Positions 5,811 through 15,857 of a stretch of DNA of 64,000 bases are shown here, in pieces. The DNA lies in contig NZ_JADOTX010000001.1 of the NCBI RefSeq assembly GCF_015751765.1, positions 2,232,001 to 2,296,000 of the forward strand. The letters are read 5' to 3'. The position numbers and the translations under genes are program-made. The DNA comes from Micromonospora ureilytica (GTDB lineage Bacteria; Actinomycetota; Actinomycetes; Mycobacteriales; Micromonosporaceae). Each line of letters begins with the position of its first letter. The stretch's first letter is position 1. The notes beneath the pieces were generated by a model, which saw only the letters and a program-made list of their open reading frames with translations, made no database searches and had not been told where the DNA came from.

Positions 5811-7610
5811 TCAGGTGACGACGATCCGGGCGTCGTCGGGCAACCGGCGGGTCGCGCCCCGCCGGTCCAGCAGCTCCAGCAGGGGCACCGCCACCCGGCG
5901 GGTGGTGTCCAACGCCTGCCGGGCCGCGGAGAGGGTGAACGGCTGCGGCAGCCCGGCCAGCACCCGGACCGCGTCGTCGAGCGCGTCGGGCAGCAGCACC
6001 ACGTTGTCGGCCAGCCGCAGCAGAGCGCCGGCCCGCACGGCGGCGCCGATCTCCCGGGGGCCCAGACCGAGATCGACGAGACGGTCCGCCTCGGGGGCGC
6101 GGAACGGCCGGTCGCCGTACTCGGCGCGGACCCGCTGCACGGCCCGGGCCACCGGCTCGGGCAACGCGTCGGCGCTCGCCGCCCCGACCCGACCGGCGTG
6201 GATCCGCAGCGGCGGCCGGACCAGCGCCTCGACCAGCACCCGGTCGGGCAGGGCGAGGCGCTGCCGCAGCGCGTCCACCGGCATCCCGGGCGCCAACGGG
6301 TGCTCCCGCGCGTGCCGGGCGACCTCCTCGGTCAACTGCTCGCCGAGCCGCCGCCAGTGTGCGGGGTCGGCCAACCAGTCACCGGCCACCGGCTCGGCGT
6401 ACGCCGGCCCGTCTCCCATCGGCTCGGCGTGCACCGGCAGGTCTTGCACCGGCACACCCATCCGGATCAACGCGCCGGCCCGGATCAGTCGGCGACGGCG
6501 CAGCTCCCCCGCCAGGTCGGGTCGACCGTCCAACTCGGCGAGGACCTGGGCGCGGGCGGCGGCCGCACCCCGTCGGGCCAGCGGTGGGGGCGCCACGTCC
6601 AGCACCCGCACCCCACCGCTGACGTGGTGGCGACCCGGGTCCCGTAGCAGCGCCCGATCGCCCACCAGCAACGGCAGTGGGCGGGCCAGCCGCAGCCGGA
6701 CGGTGTCCGGGCCGAGCGGGCGCAGCCGCACCGGCACCGCCGCCGACCCGACGTGCAGGGTGAGGGTGGCCGGCAGGTCGGCGGCCGGGTCGCCGGCGAG
6801 CCGGACGTCGACCAGGTCGGTGTGGTGGAACCGGCCCGGGGTGAGCAACGCGTCGCCCCGGCCCAGCCGGTCGCGGGGCGTACCGCGCAGGTTGACCGCC
6901 ACCCGGGCGACCGCCGCCGCCTCCGCTCGGGCCTCGCCCAGGGAGTGCAGGCCACGGACCCGGACCGGTTCGTCGGTGCCGGCCAGCTCCAGTTCGTCGC
7001 CCACCCGCATCCGGCCGGCGCCGAGGGTGCCGGTGACGACGGTGCCGCTGCCCCGCACGGTGAAGCTGCGGTCCACCCACAGCCGGACCGGGTCGTCGAG
7101 CGTCGGCGCGGGCAGTTGGGCGGCGAGCCGGTCCAGGGCGGCCCGCAGCTCCGACAGGCCGGCCCCGGTCAGGCCACTGACCGCCACCGCCGGCACCACG
7201 CCGAGGCTGGTCGCGGCGATCTCGGCGCGGGCGCGGGCCGTCGCGGGCCCCGGGTCGGCCAGGTCCGCGCGGGTCACCGCCAGCAGGCCGTACGCGACAC
7301 CGAGCGCGTCGAGCGCGGCCAGGTGCTCGGCGGACTGCGGCATCCAGCCCTCGTCGGCGGCCACCACGATCAGCGCCGCCGGCACCGGGCCGACCCCGGC
7401 GAGCATGTTCGGCACGAACCGCTCGTGCCCGGGTACGTCGACGAAGGCGACGGTCCCGCCGGACGGCAACGTCGTCCAGGCGAAACCCAGGTCGATGGTC
7501 ATCCCCCGGCGTCGTTCCTCGGCCCACCTGTCGGGTTCCATGCCGGTCAACGCCCGGACCAGCGTCGACTTACCGTGGTCGACGTGCCCGGCGGTCGCGA
7601 CGACGAACAC
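5811..7610 (-). CDS. selB: Selenocysteine-specific elongation factor SelB
   Basis: This 599-aa GTPase delivers Sec-tRNA(Sec) to UGA codons marked by a SECIS hairpin. The G domain shows G1 GHVDHGKST (8-16), the switch region MTIDLGFAW, G3 DVPGHE (58-63) and G4 VTRAD near residue 115. EF-Tu-like domains 2 and 3 follow, with RGSGTVVTGTLGAG. The C-terminal third consists of winged-helix repeats that would bind the SECIS RNA. The GTG start at 7610 lies 2 bp beyond the selA stop, implying translational coupling. It ends 28 bp from the convergent alcohol dehydrogenase stop. Together with selA, tRNA-Sec and the UGA-containing fdhA upstream, the assignment is firm. Confidence 0.95.
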   Translation of the reverse strand: MFVVATAGHVDHGKSTLVRALTGMEPDRWAEERRRGMTIDLGFAWTTLPSGGTVAFVDVPGHERFVPNMLAGVGPVPAALIVVAADEGWMPQSAEHLAALDALGVAYGLLAVTRADLADPGPATARARAEIAATSLGVVPAVAVSGLTGAGLSELRAALDRLAAQLPAPTLDDPVRLWVDRSFTVRGSGTVVTGTLGAGRMRVGDELELAGTDEPVRVRGLHSLGEARAEAAAVARVAVNLRGTPRDRLGRGDALLTPGRFHHTDLVDVRLAGDPAADLPATLTLHVGSAAVPVRLRPLGPDTVRLRLARPLPLLVGDRALLRDPGRHHVSGGVRVLDVAPPPLARRGAAAARAQVLAELDGRPDLAGELRRRRLIRAGALIRMGVPVQDLPVHAEPMGDGPAYAEPVAGDWLADPAHWRRLGEQLTEEVARHAREHPLAPGMPVDALRQRLALPDRVLVEALVRPPLRIHAGRVGAASADALPEPVARAVQRVRAEYGDRPFRAPEADRLVDLGLGPREIGAAVRAGALLRLADNVVLLPDALDDAVRVLAGLPQPFTLSAARQALDTTRRVAVPLLELLDRRGATRRLPDDARIVVT

Positions 7611-7612
7611 GC

Positions 7613-8917
7613 TCAGTCGTCCCCGGGTACGCGCAGCACGGCAGCGCGGACGGCCTCGTCGGCGTCGGCGGGCACACAGCGCAGGTCGAGCAGGAGCCGC
7701 CCGCGCACCACCCGACCGAGGACCGGCGGGTCTCCGACGCGCAGCGGCGCCGCGTACCGCTCGGGCAGGCTCAACGCCCAGGAGTCCAACTCCACCCCGG
7801 GGGCGCCGCCGCCGCCGACCACCGCGACGGCCGGCACCACCTCCGCCTTGCGGCCGTCCGCGCCGAGCCGGTCCCGCAGCCGCTCCACCCGTTCGCGCAG
7901 GGCACCCGGGTCGGCGTGCAGCGCCACCCGGGTCGGGGTCTCCGGTTGATTCACTGTGGCGGTCAGCGCGGCCAGGGTGAGCTTGTCCACCCGCAGCGCC
8001 CGGGCCAGCGGGTGGCGACGCAGCCGGTCGATCACCTCGACGTCACCCAGCAGCAGCCCCGCCTGCGGCCCGCCGAGCAGCTTGTCGCCACTGGCGGTGA
8101 CCAGCGCGGCACCCGCGCGCAGGGTGCTGGCCGCGTCCGGTTCGTCGGGCAGCAGCGGGTCCGCGCCGAGCAGCCCGGAGCCGATGTCCACGACGACCGG
8201 CACCCCGAGCGTGGCCAGTTGCCGTACGCCGACGGCGGAGGTGAAGCCGGTGACCCGGAAGTTCGACGGGTGCACCTTGAGCACGAAGCCGGTCTGCGGG
8301 CCGAGCGCGGCGGCGTAGTCCGCGAGGGTGGTGCGGTTGGTGGTGCCCACCTCCCGCAGCCGCGCGCCGGTGCTCTCCAACAGGTCGGGCAGGCGGAAAC
8401 CGTCGCCGATCTCGACCAGCTCGCCTCGGCTGACCACGATCTCCCGACCGGCGGCCAACGCGGTGGCGGCCAGCACCAGCGCGGCGGCGCCGTTGTTGAC
8501 CACGTGCACGGCGCCCGCGTCGGGCACGGCGGCGGCCAGCGCGTCGAGCGCGCCCCGGCCGCGTCGGGCCCGCCGGCCGGTGGCCAGGTCCAACTCGACG
8601 TCGGTGTGCCCGGCGGCGGCCACCACCGCGGCGACCGCGGCGGACGACAACGGCGCCCGACCCAGGTTGGTGTGCAGCACGACACCAGTGGCGTTGAGGA
8701 CCAACCGGGGGCCGGGGGTGGGTAGCGCGGCGACGGCCGCGTCGCGTACCTCGTCGGGGTTGAGCTCACCGCGGCGGGCGCGGCCCTGCGCGTGGGAGAC
8801 GATCGCCTTGACCTGCTCCCGGCCGAGGGTCGCGGTGGCGGCGGCCAGCACCGGGTCGGCGAGCAGCGTGTCCGTACGGGGCACCCGACGTCGCGGGTCC
8901 ACCGGGCCGTCGCCCAT
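7613..8917 (-). CDS. selA: L-seryl-tRNA(Sec) selenium transferase SelA
   Basis: This PLP enzyme of about 434 aa converts Ser-tRNA(Sec) to Sec-tRNA(Sec) using selenophosphate. Recognisable features are the N-terminal tRNA-binding region (PRTDTLLADPVL), the family motif NATGVVLHTNLGRAPLS, NNGAAALVLA, EIGDGFRLPD, and the PLP-lysine motif TASGDKLLGGPQAG near residue 285. AGGAG lies 8 nt before the ATG at 8917; a GTG one codon upstream is possible. It follows tRNA-Sec by 23 bp and is coupled to selB, so all three probably come from one transcript. Selenophosphate synthetase (selD) is needed for function but is not in the window. Confidence 0.95.
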   Translation of the reverse strand: MGDGPVDPRRRVPRTDTLLADPVLAAATATLGREQVKAIVSHAQGRARRGELNPDEVRDAAVAALPTPGPRLVLNATGVVLHTNLGRAPLSSAAVAAVVAAAGHTDVELDLATGRRARRGRGALDALAAAVPDAGAVHVVNNGAAALVLAATALAAGREIVVSRGELVEIGDGFRLPDLLESTGARLREVGTTNRTTLADYAAALGPQTGFVLKVHPSNFRVTGFTSAVGVRQLATLGVPVVVDIGSGLLGADPLLPDEPDAASTLRAGAALVTASGDKLLGGPQAGLLLGDVEVIDRLRRHPLARALRVDKLTLAALTATVNQPETPTRVALHADPGALRERVERLRDRLGADGRKAEVVPAVAVVGGGGAPGVELDSWALSLPERYAAPLRVGDPPVLGRVVRGRLLLDLRCVPADADEAVRAAVLRVPGDD

Positions 8918-8940
8918 CACGTCATCTCCTGCAAGCGATG

Positions 8941-9036
8941 TGGCGGAGACGGACGGGAATCGAACCCGCCTGGCCCGGGTCCCGGACCACTCCGGTTTTG
9001 AAGACCGGGAGGGGCACCAGCCGCCTGAACGCCTCC
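8941..9036 (-). tRNA. selC: tRNA-Sec (anticodon UCA)
   Basis: The 96-nt minus-strand gene has the anticodon stem-loop CCGGT-CTTCAAA-ACCGG, which reads UGA. It has the tRNA-Sec hallmarks. The acceptor is 8 nt (GGAGGCGT opposite CCGTCTCC, last pair mismatched) on a 5-bp T stem with loop TTCGATT. The D stem has 6 pairs (AGG..GGC with GCC-CCT, one bulged C) and a 4-nt loop. The variable arm is long, with stem TGGTCC/GGGCCA. The discriminator is G and CCA is encoded. It sits 14 bp after the NrfD-type gene and just before selA, so it is probably processed from the fdh-sel transcript. Confidence 0.95.
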
Positions 9037-9049
9037 ACCGGACATTCGA

Positions 9050-10201
9050 TCACACCGCGGGCGGGACCGCCCGATCAGATGGAAGATCCATGCCGGTTCG
9101 GCGGGCTTCGACCCGTTCGCGCTGCGGCACCACCGTGTAGCGGGGGTCGCGGGCCGAGGCGACGCCGCCGTAGAAGATGCCGAACCGGGTCAGCACCGAC
9201 GCGGCCAGCAGCGCGGTCCCGGAGAGCGCCCCGACCACCCGGCTGCGCCGGCCCAGCAGCGCACCCGCCACCCCGCCGACGGTCAACAACCGCCCGGCGC
9301 GCAGCAACCGACCCGGCCGACCCAACCGGTAGGGCTCGCTGAGCAGGCCGAGGCGGGTCTCCACCCGATGCGCGCCGTACAGCTCCAGGGCCGCGCCGGC
9401 CACCGCCATCCGGCGGGCCGGCCCGGCCTGGGCCGGCGGCGCGGCGAGCAGACCCACGCCGGCGCCGCTGGCCAGCGCGCTGCCCGCGAAGATCACCGGC
9501 AGCTCCGGGTACGCCTCATGCCACGACGGCACCGCCGTGTCGGCCAACAACACCCCGGTGTACGTGGCCAGGGCCGGCGCGGTGCCGGCGGCGACCAGCC
9601 CAGCGGCGTGCCCGATCGACGGCAACGCGCGGCCGGCCAGCCCGAGCAGACCGTGCCGGGGCAGCACACCGGCCGCCTCGGCGATCGCGGCGACGCCCGC
9701 CGCCGGCCCGTACACGGTGAGGATCCACGTGCCCACCGACATCGGCGAGGTCAGCTTGGCCACCCGCAGCATGTGGTGGAACCGCGCCGGCCGGCCCAGG
9801 TCCCTCACCAGGAAGACGGCGCTGGCGCTGACGGCCGCCAACGCGGTGACCCGACCGGCGCGCCGCAGCGCGGGCCGCCCGGTCAGCTGCCCGCCCGCGG
9901 CCAGCAGCGACGAACCGGCCGCCAACCCGCCGGTGAACAGGTACGCGGCGATGTCCCACTTCCAGACCGGCCCCTTCAGAACCGGCCGACCGTAGTACGA
10001 CGTGAACTCGGCCTCCGGCACCCGCAGTTCCTCACCGCCGCCACGCCGCCTGCCCCGCCGGCCCTGCCGGCCCCCGGCTTCCCTGCTGCCGCTGGCGGTA
10101 CTGGGGCGGTCGTCGCTCACCGGTGATCGGTCGAGGCTCTCGGCGGCGAGCCGCTCCCGGAAGCGACGGAACCGGTCGCCCACGGGGCCCGGTGGGGTCA
10201 T
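9050..10201 (-). CDS. nrfD: NrfD/PsrC-type membrane subunit of formate dehydrogenase
   Basis: This 383-aa protein is polytopic after a charged N-terminal extension of about 80 residues (repeated Arg/Gly such as GRRGRRRGGG). The membrane part starts near KWDIAAYLFTGGLAAGSSLLA, typical of the NrfD family of quinone-reactive membrane subunits, and continues with about eight hydrophobic helices. VRDLGRPARFHHMLRV matches the conserved DLGRP loop of this family. The ATG overlaps the fdhB stop (ATGA at 10198-10201), showing coupling to the Fe-S subunit. It probably accepts electrons from FdhA-FdhB and passes them to the quinone pool. The tRNA-Sec gene follows directly. Confidence 0.85.
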   Translation of the reverse strand: MTPPGPVGDRFRRFRERLAAESLDRSPVSDDRPSTASGSREAGGRQGRRGRRRGGGEELRVPEAEFTSYYGRPVLKGPVWKWDIAAYLFTGGLAAGSSLLAAGGQLTGRPALRRAGRVTALAAVSASAVFLVRDLGRPARFHHMLRVAKLTSPMSVGTWILTVYGPAAGVAAIAEAAGVLPRHGLLGLAGRALPSIGHAAGLVAAGTAPALATYTGVLLADTAVPSWHEAYPELPVIFAGSALASGAGVGLLAAPPAQAGPARRMAVAGAALELYGAHRVETRLGLLSEPYRLGRPGRLLRAGRLLTVGGVAGALLGRRSRVVGALSGTALLAASVLTRFGIFYGGVASARDPRYTVVPQRERVEARRTGMDLPSDRAVPPAV

Positions 10202-11226
10202 GAGGAACCTCCGACGAACGCGGCGACGGTCGCCGCCGCCATGGCGAGCGCGGCGAGGCCGGCACGTTTCCACATCTTCGGCAGGTCCCGGGTCGTCACG
10301 ACCGGGTCGGGCGGCAGCCCGTACACCTCCGGCTCGTCGAGCAGCAGGAAGAACGCACCGTCACCGCCGACGCCGTCGTTCGGGTCGTGCCCATACAGGC
10401 GCGCCTCGGGAACGCCACGGTCGTGCAGCGTCTCCACCCGGGCGGCGGCGCGTTCGCGCAGCTCGTCGAGGGGCCCGTACTGGATCGACTCGGTCGGGCA
10501 CGCCTGCGCACAGGCCGGGGTCATCCCCGCACCCAACCGGTCGTAGCACAGCGTGCACTTCCACGCCCGACCATCGTCCTTACGCTGATCGATCACCCCG
10601 TACGGGCAGGCGGAGATGCAGTACCCACACCCGTTGCAGATGTCCTCCTGCACCACCACCGTGCCGAACTCCGTCCGGAACAACGAACCCGTCGGACACA
10701 CATCCAGGCACGCCGCGTGGGTGCAGTGCTTACAGACGTCCGACATCATCAACCAGCGGAAATCCGTGCGCTCCTCGACGCCAGTGCCCCGGCCCGGCGG
10801 CTGCGCCCCCGGCATCCCGAGGAACTGCGGTCCCGCGCCCGCGTCGGCCGGTCGGGTCGGGCCGGCGTCGGCCGGTCGGGTCGGGCCGGCGTCGGCCGGT
10901 CGGGTCGGGCCGGCGTCGGCCGGTCGGGTCGGGCCGAGGACGTCCGTCGGCGAGGCGCCATGCCCGGCCGGGCGCGGCTGCTCGATGAACGCCACATGGC
11001 GCCACGAGTTCGCGGTCAACGCGCCTGTGTTGTCGTACGACATCCCGAGCAGGTCCAGCCCGTTCTCCGGGACGCCGTTCCACTCCTTGCAGGCGACCTC
11101 GCAGGCCTTGCAGCCGATGCAGACGCTGGTGTCGGTGAAGAACCCCATCCGGGGTGGCGCGTTCTCATAGCCCGCGTCGGGCGCCGGGTCCAGCGGACCG
11201 TAGAGGCTGTTCGGGTCAGGAAGCAC
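10198..11226 (-). CDS. fdhB: Formate dehydrogenase Fe-S subunit (beta), with internal tandem repeat
   Basis: This 342-aa electron-transfer subunit carries four [4Fe-4S] cysteine clusters: CIGCKACEVAC near residue 36, CKHCTHAACLDVC near 166, CNGCGYCISAC near 199, and CTLC with CAQAC near 225-245. A C-terminal hydrophobic helix (AGLAALAMAAATVAAFVGG) can anchor it to the membrane. Between the first and second clusters lies an insert of four GPTRPADA octapeptides, encoded by perfect 24-bp repeats. The GTG start overlaps the fdhA stop by 11 bp and has GGAAGGA upstream. It transfers electrons from the Sec/Mo subunit to the NrfD-type subunit. Confidence 0.93.
   Translation of the reverse strand: MLPDPNSLYGPLDPAPDAGYENAPPRMGFFTDTSVCIGCKACEVACKEWNGVPENGLDLLGMSYDNTGALTANSWRHVAFIEQPRPAGHGASPTDVLGPTRPADAGPTRPADAGPTRPADAGPTRPADAGAGPQFLGMPGAQPPGRGTGVEERTDFRWLMMSDVCKHCTHAACLDVCPTGSLFRTEFGTVVVQEDICNGCGYCISACPYGVIDQRKDDGRAWKCTLCYDRLGAGMTPACAQACPTESIQYGPLDELRERAAARVETLHDRGVPEARLYGHDPNDGVGGDGAFFLLLDEPEVYGLPPDPVVTTRDLPKMWKRAGLAALAMAAATVAAFVGGSS
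10841..10936 (-). repeat. Four perfect 24-bp tandem repeats inside fdhB
   Basis: Four identical copies of a 24-bp unit (10841-10864, 10865-10888, 10889-10912, 10913-10936) encode the octapeptide GPTRPADA. The period is a multiple of three, so copy-number change keeps the frame. The identity of the copies suggests recent slippage expansion. The segment lies in a Pro-rich linker between Fe-S clusters and is probably a disordered loop. Confidence 0.95.
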
Positions 11227-14200
11227 CGTGTTCCTTCCCCTCGTTGTCGGTGGTCACGGCCGGGGCGTGTTGGCCCGGGGTGATGCCGGCGCGCCGCTGG
11301 TAGTCGGCCACCAGGTCGAGCAACGCCGGGCCGGTGGGACGGCGACCCGGCCGCACGTCGCAGGTGCCGACCTTGCTCTCCTGGATCAGCACGTTCGGGT
11401 CCAGGCTGATGCCGAACAGATCGTTGGCCGAGTCGCCGGTGACGAGCCCCTCAAAACCGAAGTGGTACGGCAACCACACCTGGTGGATGATCCGACCGTC
11501 CACCCGCAGCGGGGTGAGCCGGTCGGTGACCAGCACCTTCGCCTCGATCACCGCGCGGCCGCTGACCAGGTGCGCCCAGCCCAGATGCGTCAGCCCCACC
11601 TCGTCGGCAAGGGCCGGGGACACCTCGACGAACATCTCCGGTTGCAGCTCGGCCAACGGTGACACCGTCCGGCTCATCCCGCCGGCGGTGTGGTGCTCGG
11701 TGAGCCGGCTGACCGTGAACACGTACGGGAACACCTGACCGTGCTCCTGCGGAGGGCTCGGGTTCACCGAGTTCACCGGATGCGCGTACATCTTGCGGGT
11801 CGGGTTGGCCTGCTGACCGTAGAGCGGGTTACGCACCGGCGACTCCACCGGCTCGTAGTGCGTCGGCAACGGCCCGTCCAGGACACCGCTGGGCGCGTAC
11901 AGCCAACCCTTGCCGTCGCCCTGCATGACGAACGGGTCGTCGCCCGCGATGCCCTCCGTCCCGGACGCGCCGGGCGGCGGCCGGTACGACGGCGGCTTGG
12001 TCTTCTCGAAGTCCGGCACGTCGTAACCGGTCCACTCGGCCTTGTCCGCATCCCACCACACGTAACGCTTGCGCTCACTCCACGGGTTGCCGTCCGGGTC
12101 GGCGGACGCACGGTTGTAGAGGATGCGCCGGTTCGCCGGCCACGCCCAGCCCCACTCGGCGGCCACCCAGTCCTGCTCGTGCCGGGACCTGCGCCGGGCC
12201 GCCTGGTTCACGCCGTCGGCGTACACCCCGCTGTAGATCCAACAACCGATCGCGGTGGAGCCGTCCGCGCGGGCCTCGGCGAAACCGGACAGCGGACGGC
12301 CGGTCGTCACGTCGTACCCGTTGATCTCGCGCAGCACCGCCTCGGCGCTCGGCTCCGCGTGCGGGCCGTGCGTGGGGTAGTCCCAGGTGAGGTCGAGCAG
12401 CGCCCGGTCGCGCGGCAGCGGCGAGTCGGCCAGCCTCTCCCGCAACTTGCGGCCCAGGTGATAGAAGAACCACAACTCGGAGCGGGCGTCGCCCGGCGGC
12501 TCGACGGCCTTCTCCCGCCACTGCAACAACCGCTGCGTCTGGGTGAACGTGCCCTCCTTCTCCACATGCGACGCGGCGGGCAGGAAGAACACCTCAGTGC
12601 GGCACTCCTCCGGCACGATCTCCCCGGTGGCGACCTCGGGGCCGTTCTGCCAGAACGTCGCGCTCTCGATCATGAACAGGTCCCGGACCACCAACCAGTC
12701 CAGGTTGGCCATCCCGAGCCGCTGCGCCCGACCGTGCGCCGACCCGACCGCCGGGTTCTGCCCCAGCAGGAAGTACCCCTTGATCTTTCCGTCGATCATG
12801 TTGAGCACCTGCTGGTATGTGCCATGATCACCGGTCAGCCGGGGCAGGTAGCCGTAGCAGAAGTCGTTCTCCGGCGTCGCCGCGTCACCCCAGTACGCCT
12901 TGAGCAGGCTGGCCGCGAACGACCGCGCGTTGCCCCAGAACCCCTTCTGCCCGGGGTGGCGGATGCTGTCCACCCACTCGTCGAAGCTCGGGTGCTCGGC
13001 GTGGTGCGGCATTGGCAGATAGCCGGGCAACAGGTTGAACAGCGTCGGGATGTCGGTCGAGCCCTGGATGCTGGCGTGCCCCCGCAGGGCCATGACGCCA
13101 CCACCAGGACGGCCCATGTTGCCCAGCAACAACTGGATGATCGCGCCGGTACGGATGTACTGCACACCCACACTGTGCTGCGTCCACCCGACGGAGTAGA
13201 TCAGCATGCCGGTGCGGTCCCGGCCGGAGTTCGCCGTCCACGCCCGCGCCAACTCCAGGAACTGCGCCTGCGAAATACCGCACACCCGCTCCACCATCTC
13301 CGGGGTGTAGCGGGCGAAGTGTCGCTTGAGGATCTGGTAGACGCAGCGCGGATGCTGCAACGTCTCGTCACGCCGGGTCTGCCCGCCGACCGGCGCGCCG
13401 TGCGACTCGTGCGTCAACCCTGCGGCGCTGTCCCGCTCCTGGGCGGTGTGCCCACTGCCCGACGAACCCTCATGCCCCTCGTACTGCCAGCTGTCCTGCA
13501 CATACGTGCCGGTCTCCGGGTCGAAGCCGGAGAAGAAGCCGTCGCCGTCCTCGGTGTCGCTGAACTCTGCACTGACGATCGTCGCCGCGTTGGTGTACGA
13601 GAGCACGTACTCCCGGAAGTCCAGGTCGTTGTCGAGGATGTAGCGCACCACCCCACCGAGCAACGCGATGTCGGTGCCCGCCCGGATCGGCAGGTACGCA
13701 TCAGCGACCGCGCTCGTCCGGGTGAACCGCGGGTCGACGTGGAAAACCTTCGCGCCTTTGCGCTTGGCCTCCATCACCCACTGGAAACCCACCGGGTGCG
13801 CCTCAGCCATGTTCGAACCCTGGATGACGATCACGTCAGCGTTGGCGATGTCCTGCTGGAAATCCGTCGCACCGCCACGACCGAAGCTGGCCCCCAGACC
13901 GGGGACAGTGGCGGAGTGTCAAATACGGGCCTGGTTCTCGATCTGGAGCGCCCCCATCGCGGTGAACAACTTCTTGATGAGGTAGTTCTCCTCGTTGTCC
14001 AGCGTCGCCCCACCCAGACTGGAGATACCCAGCGTCCGGTTCAGCGGTCGACCCTGCGTGTCGACGTCCTCCCAGGTCTGCTCGCGGGCGGCGAGGATCC
14101 GGTCCGCGATCATGTCGAGCGCGGTGTCGAGCTCCAGATCCTCCCACTGCGTCGAGTACGGCCGGCGGTAGCGGACCGTGGTCTGCCGCAACGGACTCGT

Positions 14201-14488
14201 GACCAGGCTCTTGCTCGCCGAGCCCTTCGGGCAGAGCCGACCCCGCGAGATCGGACTGTCCGGATCACCCTCGATCTGACTGACCTGCCCATCCTTCACG
14301 AACACCCGCTGACCACAACCCACCGCGCAGTACGGGCACACCGAACGGGCCACGCTGTCGGCGTCCTCGGTACGAGCGGTGAGCGCGCGGGACCCGTCGG
14401 ACTTCGCCGCCGCACCCCGACCCAACGGGTCCGTGCCGGTGAGCTGGCGGTAGACCGGCCAACCCTCGACAAAGGTCCGCAGACCCAT
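11216..14488 (-). CDS. fdhA: Selenocysteine-containing formate dehydrogenase catalytic subunit
   Basis: This molybdopterin oxidoreductase of 1090 residues oxidises formate. The N-terminal [4Fe-4S] site is CPYCAVGCG (Cys 51, 54, 58) with LCPKG near 85. The frame is interrupted only by TGA at 13919-13921, codon 190, in the context ENQARI-U-HSATVPG. This is the Sec-His pair of known formate dehydrogenases, and a SECIS hairpin follows. After the UGA the same frame runs uninterrupted through the Mo-bisMGD domains to a C-terminal molybdopterin-dinucleotide-binding domain. The ATG at 14488 is preferred because GGGAGGGGG precedes it and MGLRTFVEGWPVYRQLTG resembles family N-termini; a start 39 nt upstream is possible. 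A conventional gene caller would split this gene or start it after the UGA. Confidence 0.95.
13871..13921 (-). promoter_or_regulatory. Bacterial SECIS element with UGA-Sec codon
   Basis: The UGA codon (13921-13919) is followed by a hairpin. Its outer stem is CCGCCAC (13914-13908) with GTGGCGG (13878-13872). Its upper stem is CCCC/GGGG (13904-13901 and 13895-13892), closing a loop GGUCU. The E. coli fdhF SECIS has the same GGUCUG loop at the same distance, 18 nt after the UGA. SelB bound here would direct Sec insertion at residue 190 of FdhA. Confidence 0.92.
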
Positions 14489-14542
14489 CCCCGGCACCCC
14501 CTCCCACGCGAGCGACCCCCTGAACATAGGTCAACTGAGACA

Positions 14543-15299: not shown

Positions 15300-15857
15300 T
15301 CAGCTGTTCCAGTGCTGGCCGACCAGGTCGGCGGCCTGCTGCTCCCACTGGGCGTACGCGTCCGGGTACGCCGACACCTGCACCGTCTGCGCGGCCTTGG
15401 TCAGCGGCATGTCCTGCCAGCCGTCGACCTGCTTGAGGCCCTTCAGGAACGCGGTCGTGGAGTACTCAGGGTCGGTGATCTGCTCCGGGGTGCCCCAACC
15501 GCTGGACGGGCGCTGCTGGAACAGGCCCAGCGAGTCGTGGTCGTTCATGTCGCCGAGGTGGCCCAGGTTCTCCAGCTTCGACTCCTGCAGGCTCGTGGCG
15601 ATGGAGATGACCGCGGCCCGCTCAGGCAGACCGGCCTTCTTCGTCGCGGCGATGATCGCCTTGACGTTCGCGGTCTGCTCGTCATTCAGGGTGATCCGGG
15701 ACTGGTCGCCCTGCGGCTTCGACGCCTGTACGGCCACGGCGGCGGGCTTGGCGTCGACGGCCGGGTTGGCGTGGGCGGCGATCGGGCCGGCGAAGACACC
15801 GCCGGCGAACGCGAGACCCGCAACGGACAGCATGCTCTTACGGAAGATCGTGTTCAT
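15300..15857 (-). CDS. Secreted lysozyme/transglycosylase-like protein, copy 1
   Basis: The 185-aa protein begins with a signal peptide (MNTIFRKSMLSVAGLAFAGG, cleavage probably after AAHA near residue 31). A single domain of about 130 residues follows, with AAVISIATSLQESKLENLGH, DHDSLGLFQQRPSSGWGTPE and the C-terminal YPDAYAQWEQQAADLVGQHW. The Glu in QESKL and the LGLFQQRPS motif resemble goose-lysozyme/SLT folds common in exported actinobacterial proteins, so a muralytic or wall-binding role is inferred. AGGAG precedes the ATG at 15857; longer in-frame starts run through a structured leader. It is nearly identical to the gene at 24026-24580, including its flanks. Confidence 0.85.
   Translation of the reverse strand: MNTIFRKSMLSVAGLAFAGGVFAGPIAAHANPAVDAKPAAVAVQASKPQGDQSRITLNDEQTANVKAIIAATKKAGLPERAAVISIATSLQESKLENLGHLGDMNDHDSLGLFQQRPSSGWGTPEQITDPEYSTTAFLKGLKQVDGWQDMPLTKAAQTVQVSAYPDAYAQWEQQAADLVGQHWNS

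Follow-up and report, generated by a model that had tools for sequence, protein, structure and literature searches.

Among bacterial selenoproteins, SelD and FdhA, the catalytic subunit of formate dehydrogenase (FDH), are the most widely distributed (PMC5029168), and the same is said of FdhA in a 2026 review (PMC13188914). Actinomycetospora chiangmaiensis accumulates formic acid (molar ratio about 0.6) when selenite is lacking but only to an almost negligible level when it is supplied, and one of its gene clusters has been tied experimentally to selenium-dependent formate removal (PMC7176365). In Streptomyces incarnatus NRRL8089, the selenocysteine (Sec) enzyme FDH-O is encoded by a gene with an in-frame UGA followed by a selenocysteine insertion sequence (SECIS), and sel genes lie nearby (PMC4498112). 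The locus described here resembles that of S. incarnatus in these respects and differs from it in that the S. incarnatus selD lies within the cluster (selABCD). It is located in a 64,000-nucleotide stretch of the Micromonospora ureilytica genome (contig NZ_JADOTX010000001.1, positions 2,232,001 to 2,296,000; hereafter, the window). Judging from its sequence, the window almost certainly carries an operon for a working formate dehydrogenase of the selenoprotein type, fdhA-fdhB-nrfD-like-selC-selA-selB, and Sec is very likely inserted at the UGA of fdhA.

Under genetic code table 11, the list of open reading frames (ORFs) shows fdhA as two pieces of one frame on the minus strand: 13919-14527, which ends at the UGA, and 11216-13834, which follows it. 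Treating the TGA as coding gives an uninterrupted frame from 14488 to 11216, with 1090 codons counted from the ATG at 14488. The following elements are central to the analysis:

11216..14488, minus strand: fdhA, formate dehydrogenase catalytic alpha subunit (NF041513, TIGR01553; start kept in relatives)
13919..13921, minus strand: UGA codon read as Sec, residue 190 (sequence; Sec/cysteine (Cys) column in relatives)
13890..13906, minus strand: SECIS hairpin, nucleotides (nt) 16-32 counted from the U of the UGA, stem 16-21 with 27-32

The ATG at 14488 agrees with the start in relatives (MG.R....GWPVYRQLTG), and the in-frame ATG at 14527 is the less likely start. The joined FdhA matches NF041513, the NCBIfam model of actinobacterial formate dehydrogenase, with 1953.1 bits (cut-off 1400) in a single match that spans the UGA and covers positions 3-1067 of the 1067-position profile (FdhA residues 20-1079, numbered from 14527). 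Moreover, the alignment to the solved formate dehydrogenase 1h0h_A crosses the Sec position (ENQARICHSATV versus EHQARIXHSATV). The sequence-only reading of this DNA had proposed an intact Sec formate dehydrogenase read through an in-frame UGA, with Sec at codon 190 of the ORF 11216-14488, and had suggested a search for homology across the UGA as a check. The read-through translation agrees with that codon and those boundaries, the continuous NF041513 match and the 1h0h_A alignment across the Sec column provide the homology, and the ENQARI-U-H motif found in fdhA and the adjoining tRNA-Sec, selA and selB genes support an intact enzyme. The UGA might instead be a nonsense mutation and fdhA a pseudogene, as the table-11 ORF caller, which stops the frame at 13919, would have it; however, 900 codons remain open past the UGA with full domain scores, the UGA falls on the Sec/Cys column in 69 copies (the copy in the window counted) and Sec genes adjoin fdhA, so that this explanation is scarcely credible.

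The function of FdhA is assigned by homology alone, and a Sec oxidoreductase that shares the fold but acts on a substrate other than formate could in principle give a similar picture. This is nevertheless very improbable: FdhA passes both NF041513 and the formate dehydrogenase alpha model TIGR01553 (941 bits, cut-off 814.2), the other 23 families listed for it score under their cut-offs, and its closest solved structures are formate dehydrogenases, several of them named as selenocysteine-containing. The assignment to the formate dehydrogenases is also borne out by sequence motifs, namely U190-H191, RGH at 469-471, CPYCAVGC at 51 and CPKG at 86, which supply the Sec/Cys-His pair, the RG(H/Q) motif and the N-terminal 4Fe-4S cysteines of a formate dehydrogenase with a molybdenum or tungsten bis-pyranopterin guanine dinucleotide (Mo/W-bisPGD) centre.

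The survey behind these comparisons comprised 121 genomes of the same family, in 63 of which NF041513 scored above its cut-off. Copies identical around the codon were merged, and the fdhA of one genome (G005) was excluded, being split over two contig pieces with no stop in the N-terminal one; 81 distinct copies remained, including that of the window. All 81 have Sec or Cys followed by His, together with RGH. The active-site codon is TGA in 69, TGC in 11 and TGT in one, and never TAA or TAG. FdhA combines the sequence traits of a bacterial selenoprotein: an in-frame UGA, homology on both sides of it and Cys at the same column in some relatives. The 12 Cys copies (L005, L007, L008, L010, L011, L013-L015, L017, L021, L034 and L062) form one group among the UGA copies in a quick tree (Shimodaira-Hasegawa-like approximate likelihood ratio test, SH-aLRT, 99), and midpoint rooting makes Sec-to-Cys the likely direction of change in this group. 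Cys and UGA copies occur together in several genomes (e.g., G032, G048 and G058).

Downstream of the UGA, the window hairpin presents the apical loop GGUCU at nt 22-26 (13896-13900), 18 nt past the codon. In the bacterial SECIS model, the loop lies 16-37 nt after the UGA and has a G in its first two positions (PMC13188914), which is what the window hairpin shows. A loop of the form NGUCU stands at 18 nt in all 69 UGA copies (GGUCU in 65, AGUCU in four). Pairs 16-32, 17-31, 19-29, 20-28 and 21-27 are formed in every UGA copy, the last three of positions 19-21 being C-G throughout, and pair 18-30 is formed in 68/69. The latter pair covaries (C-G 53, U-A 11, U-G 3, G-C 1 and an unpaired C-A 1) with eight changes on the tree, at the third positions of Val and Gly codons, where the changes are synonymous. 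Codon choice is also skewed: T is the last base of the loop codon in 69/69 copies, versus 745 GGT among 7024 Gly codons in these genes, and the paired Val codon is GTT in 14/69, versus 58/4736 Val codons overall. By comparison, the hairpin is broken in all 12 Cys copies, in which pair 19-29 is formed in none, pair 21-27 in three and the loop GGUCU is kept in one.

The other genes of the cluster lie on the same strand, downstream of fdhA:

10198..11226, minus strand: fdhB, iron-sulphur beta subunit, 4Fe-4S dicluster (PF13247, 84.4 bits)
9050..10201, minus strand: NrfD-like integral membrane subunit (PF03916, 67.9 bits, cut-off 25.8, scored on ORF 9050-10273)
8945..9036, minus strand: tRNA-Sec (selC), anticodon UCA (RF01852, 72.3 bits, cut-off 47; 8941-9036 according to ARAGORN)
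7613..8920, minus strand: selA, selenocysteine synthase (TIGR00474, 404 bits, cut-off 267.9)
5811..7610, minus strand: selB, Sec-specific elongation factor (TIGR00475, 265.6 bits, cut-off 242.25; SelB winged helix PF09107)

The ORF listed for the NrfD-like gene begins at 10273; the start of the gene was placed instead at the ATG overlapping the stop codon of fdhB, these two genes having an ATGA in common. There is also an overlap between fdhA and fdhB. The genome is a single contig of 7,096,270 bases, listed as 100% complete, with one tRNA-Sec above the family cut-off and one SelB match. SelD is encoded elsewhere in it (3917738-3918646, 378 bits, without an internal stop), as is FdhD (5602493-5603257), and the genome thus encodes SelA, SelB, SelC and SelD, the machinery expected of a selenoprotein-making bacterium. 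At 1702867-1706139 (L036/L050), the genome has another fdhA that contains an in-frame TGA and is 85% identical to the first; separate fdhB and NrfD genes come after it, and no tRNA gene occurs in the surrounding 19.5 kb that were fetched. No cytochrome b gamma subunit was found in the window cluster, the third gene of which is NrfD (PF03916), as in the second fdh cluster.

Across the family, UGA copies of fdhA go together with the Sec machinery. They occur in 59 genomes, of which 58 have SelB and 57 have tRNA-Sec; the single genome lacking a SelB match (G089) is 86% complete and possesses tRNA-Sec, and the two lacking a tRNA-Sec match (G025 and G063) are 80% and 77% complete; SelB is absent from 51 of the 62 genomes without a UGA copy and present in the other 11. 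SelB was counted in 69 of the 70 genomes with a match. The match in G033 was removed, as it looks EF-Tu-like (206.6 bits, model from position 1, a 428-codon frame), and those in G093 and G114 (207.7 and 213.8 bits) were counted because tRNA-Sec and selD adjoin them. In each of the genomes G055 and G075 (L127, L128, L151, L152), the SelB match, tRNA-Sec and SelD gene are all present twice, perhaps as two separate Sec systems.

Several observations weigh against a working Sec operon with a SECIS hairpin. The eight changes at pair 18-30 are few events, the sequences being related; pairs 16-32, 17-31 and 20-28 are formed in all 12 Cys copies as well and hence are little informative; and the outer pair 15-33 fails in 61 of the 69 UGA copies, being formed in eight. 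In the window itself, pair 17-31 is a U-G wobble (as in 6/69 copies), and the hairpin does not exceed shuffled sequences in stability (z -0.60, -0.27 and -0.22 at three lengths). Codons 5 and 9 past the UGA are conserved no more than the gene median, although this is the level expected if these codons covary. FdhB scores 184 bits against the FDH-beta equivalog TIGR01582, under the cut-off of 334.7.

From what is established for these protein families, Sec-tRNA is produced by SelD and SelA, the hairpin is the binding site of SelB, Sec is a ligand of Mo or W, and the His and the Arg of the RGH motif lie at the active site. The frame, the protein families, the machinery and the conserved hairpin at this locus are established by the sequence, and the genes are presumably co-transcribed. 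SelA and SelD would make Sec on the UCA tRNA, and SelB would carry it to the UGA at 13919-13921 by binding to the hairpin just downstream, which would result in Sec incorporation. The enzyme is predicted to work in the direction of formate oxidation; its bis-pyranopterin centre, with Mo (or W), would be held by Sec190 together with His191 and Arg469. From there, electrons would travel by way of the 4Fe-4S centres in FdhA and then those in FdhB to the NrfD-like subunit in the membrane, and so reach the quinone pool. FdhA is likely cytoplasmic, because a pattern test for a twin-arginine translocation (Tat) motif, [ST]RRx[FLVI], over the 70 residues that precede the 4Fe-4S motif gave no hit in any of the 81 copies.

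The sequence-only reading also took the gene as a mark of selenium-dependent formate metabolism. This is borne out only in part: eight of the 69 SelB genomes have neither of the two UGA-bearing FDH types found. Three (G019, G042 and G054) of the 11 genomes that have SelB but no UGA fdhA possess a second FDH with one TGA, of the TIGR01553 type. This second type (QQARV-U-HGP) occurs in five family genomes (L139-L143), and a possible hairpin follows its TGA too. The remaining eight are G004, G030, G041, G066, G078, G083, G093 and G114. The TIGR01553-type search covered seven of them; for the eighth, G078, the NF041513 survey gives a Cys copy and otherwise only weak matches. An internal stop in SelD was likewise found in none of the seven genomes searched (all but G078). 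Six of the eight contain a membrane-protein gene with one in-frame TGA. The gene is not found in G093 (L123) and G114 (L124), which have a SelB match, SelD and tRNA-Sec, yet in which no UGA-bearing FDH, SelD or membrane candidate was found. Sec machinery in this family is, therefore, not always equivalent to formate metabolism.

It is likely that another, unlisted kind of selenoprotein is produced in actinomycetes, an integral membrane protein of approx. 250 residues that keeps the Sec trait in genomes without a Sec FDH. The candidate loci, all outside the window, are as follows:

L121, 15333-16082, plus strand: membrane candidate, UGA at 15492
L117, L118, L122, L157-L168, L173-L176 and L177-L256: further membrane candidate loci

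The motif near the UGA is close to AGYxxSGS[V/T]-U-[S/T]xNS. In the family survey, the gene gave 16 matches (E 2.1e-23 or better) in 12 of the 121 genomes; one TGA stands at the same column in all 16, and SelB is present in all 12 genomes (Fisher p 0.001). The genome of the window yielded no match. Four weak matches in its genus (E 4e-4 to 8e-4) were rejected as unrelated, since they align 54 query residues within frames of more than 1500 codons, where the residue at the Sec position is His. Scanning named genomes confirmed 130 loci, of which 80 were kept, in genera including Streptomyces, Actinomadura and Micromonospora. The codon at this column is TGA in all 80, and no Cys version was found among the 16 family-survey and 80 named-genus loci. 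A SelB search covering the genomes of 40 of the 80 loci gave a match of at least 225 bits for 39, the exception being G128 (the genome of L186); 32 of the 40 pass the curated cut-off, and weaker matches (209.5 bits or less) were read as EF-Tu-like factors.

A GC-rich hairpin loop lies 32 nt past the UGA of the membrane gene, and in nine of the 16 family-survey copies it reads GGUCU, as in the fdhA hairpin. In the named genera, the hairpin takes the form CG[CU]C-loop-GGCG at nt 32-44, with four pairs in 80/80 loci (U-G counted in two) and the loops AGGUU (67), CGGGU (5), AGGCU (3), CGGGC (2), GGGUC (2) and GGGGC (1). The stems are almost invariant and so lack covariation of the fdhA type. The predicted structure of the protein is confident (predicted local distance difference test, pLDDT, 85; predicted template modelling score, pTM, 0.86). 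A search of Pfam and NCBIfam with one member gave no hit at E 0.1, and no counterpart was found in the family table of the 2026 review (PMC13188914). Among the best 120 of 343 matching protein records, lengths are 151-191 residues, shorter than the query, and named records are mostly called 'hypothetical protein'; eight records that were aligned all start past the UGA. Upstream of the gene in a single Streptomyces locus (L189), and within the same gene run, is a MauE gene. As a guess, the protein may be a membrane thiol/selenol redox protein of the cell envelope. The fdhA survey thus leads to an unannotated membrane protein, whose examined records begin after the UGA.

The fdhA gene itself is one more member of a catalogued family, and an NCBI model, NF041513, exists for exactly this family. 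The expectation that automated annotation would split the gene or call it a pseudogene was not borne out in the two homologous RefSeq records opened, out of 145 matching plasmid records: each gives one full-length coding sequence through the UGA (1110 codons on Arthrobacter pYA7-1a, 1054 on Tsukamurella plasmid 17).

Among known systems, the FDH1 cluster of A. chiangmaiensis DSM 45062 is similar in having a Sec FdhA1 (1078 aa), FdhB1 and FdhC1, then SelA and SelB, with SelD outside the cluster and a second, membrane-bound Sec FdhA2; unlike the window, it lists a permease between FdhC1 and SelA (PMC7176365). The same strain also possesses a third Sec FDH, a cytoplasmic one (PMC7176365), of a kind at which no search in the window's genome was aimed. 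Similar clusters with the order fdh-4Fe4S-nrfD-selD-tRNA-Sec-selA-selB occur on Arthrobacter sp. YA7-1 pYA7-1a (NZ_CP110115.1) and Tsukamurella tyrosinosolvens plasmid 17 (NZ_LR134459.1), where ARAGORN found the tRNA-Sec in both; in contrast to the window, they are plasmid-borne, selD lies inside on the other strand, and FdhA is 62% identical. The catalytic subunit sequence and the Sec position are also like those of 1h0h and of Escherichia coli FDH-N (1kqf). The latter enzyme is periplasmic, with a twin-arginine signal on the alpha subunit and a cytochrome b gamma subunit, whereas the window FdhA lacks the Tat motif and its membrane subunit is NrfD-like. The finding is an ordinary one, such clusters being already known in related soil bacteria; its value is that of a clean example, in which 12 Cys versions with a broken hairpin provide a check on the UGA, the hairpin and the machinery.

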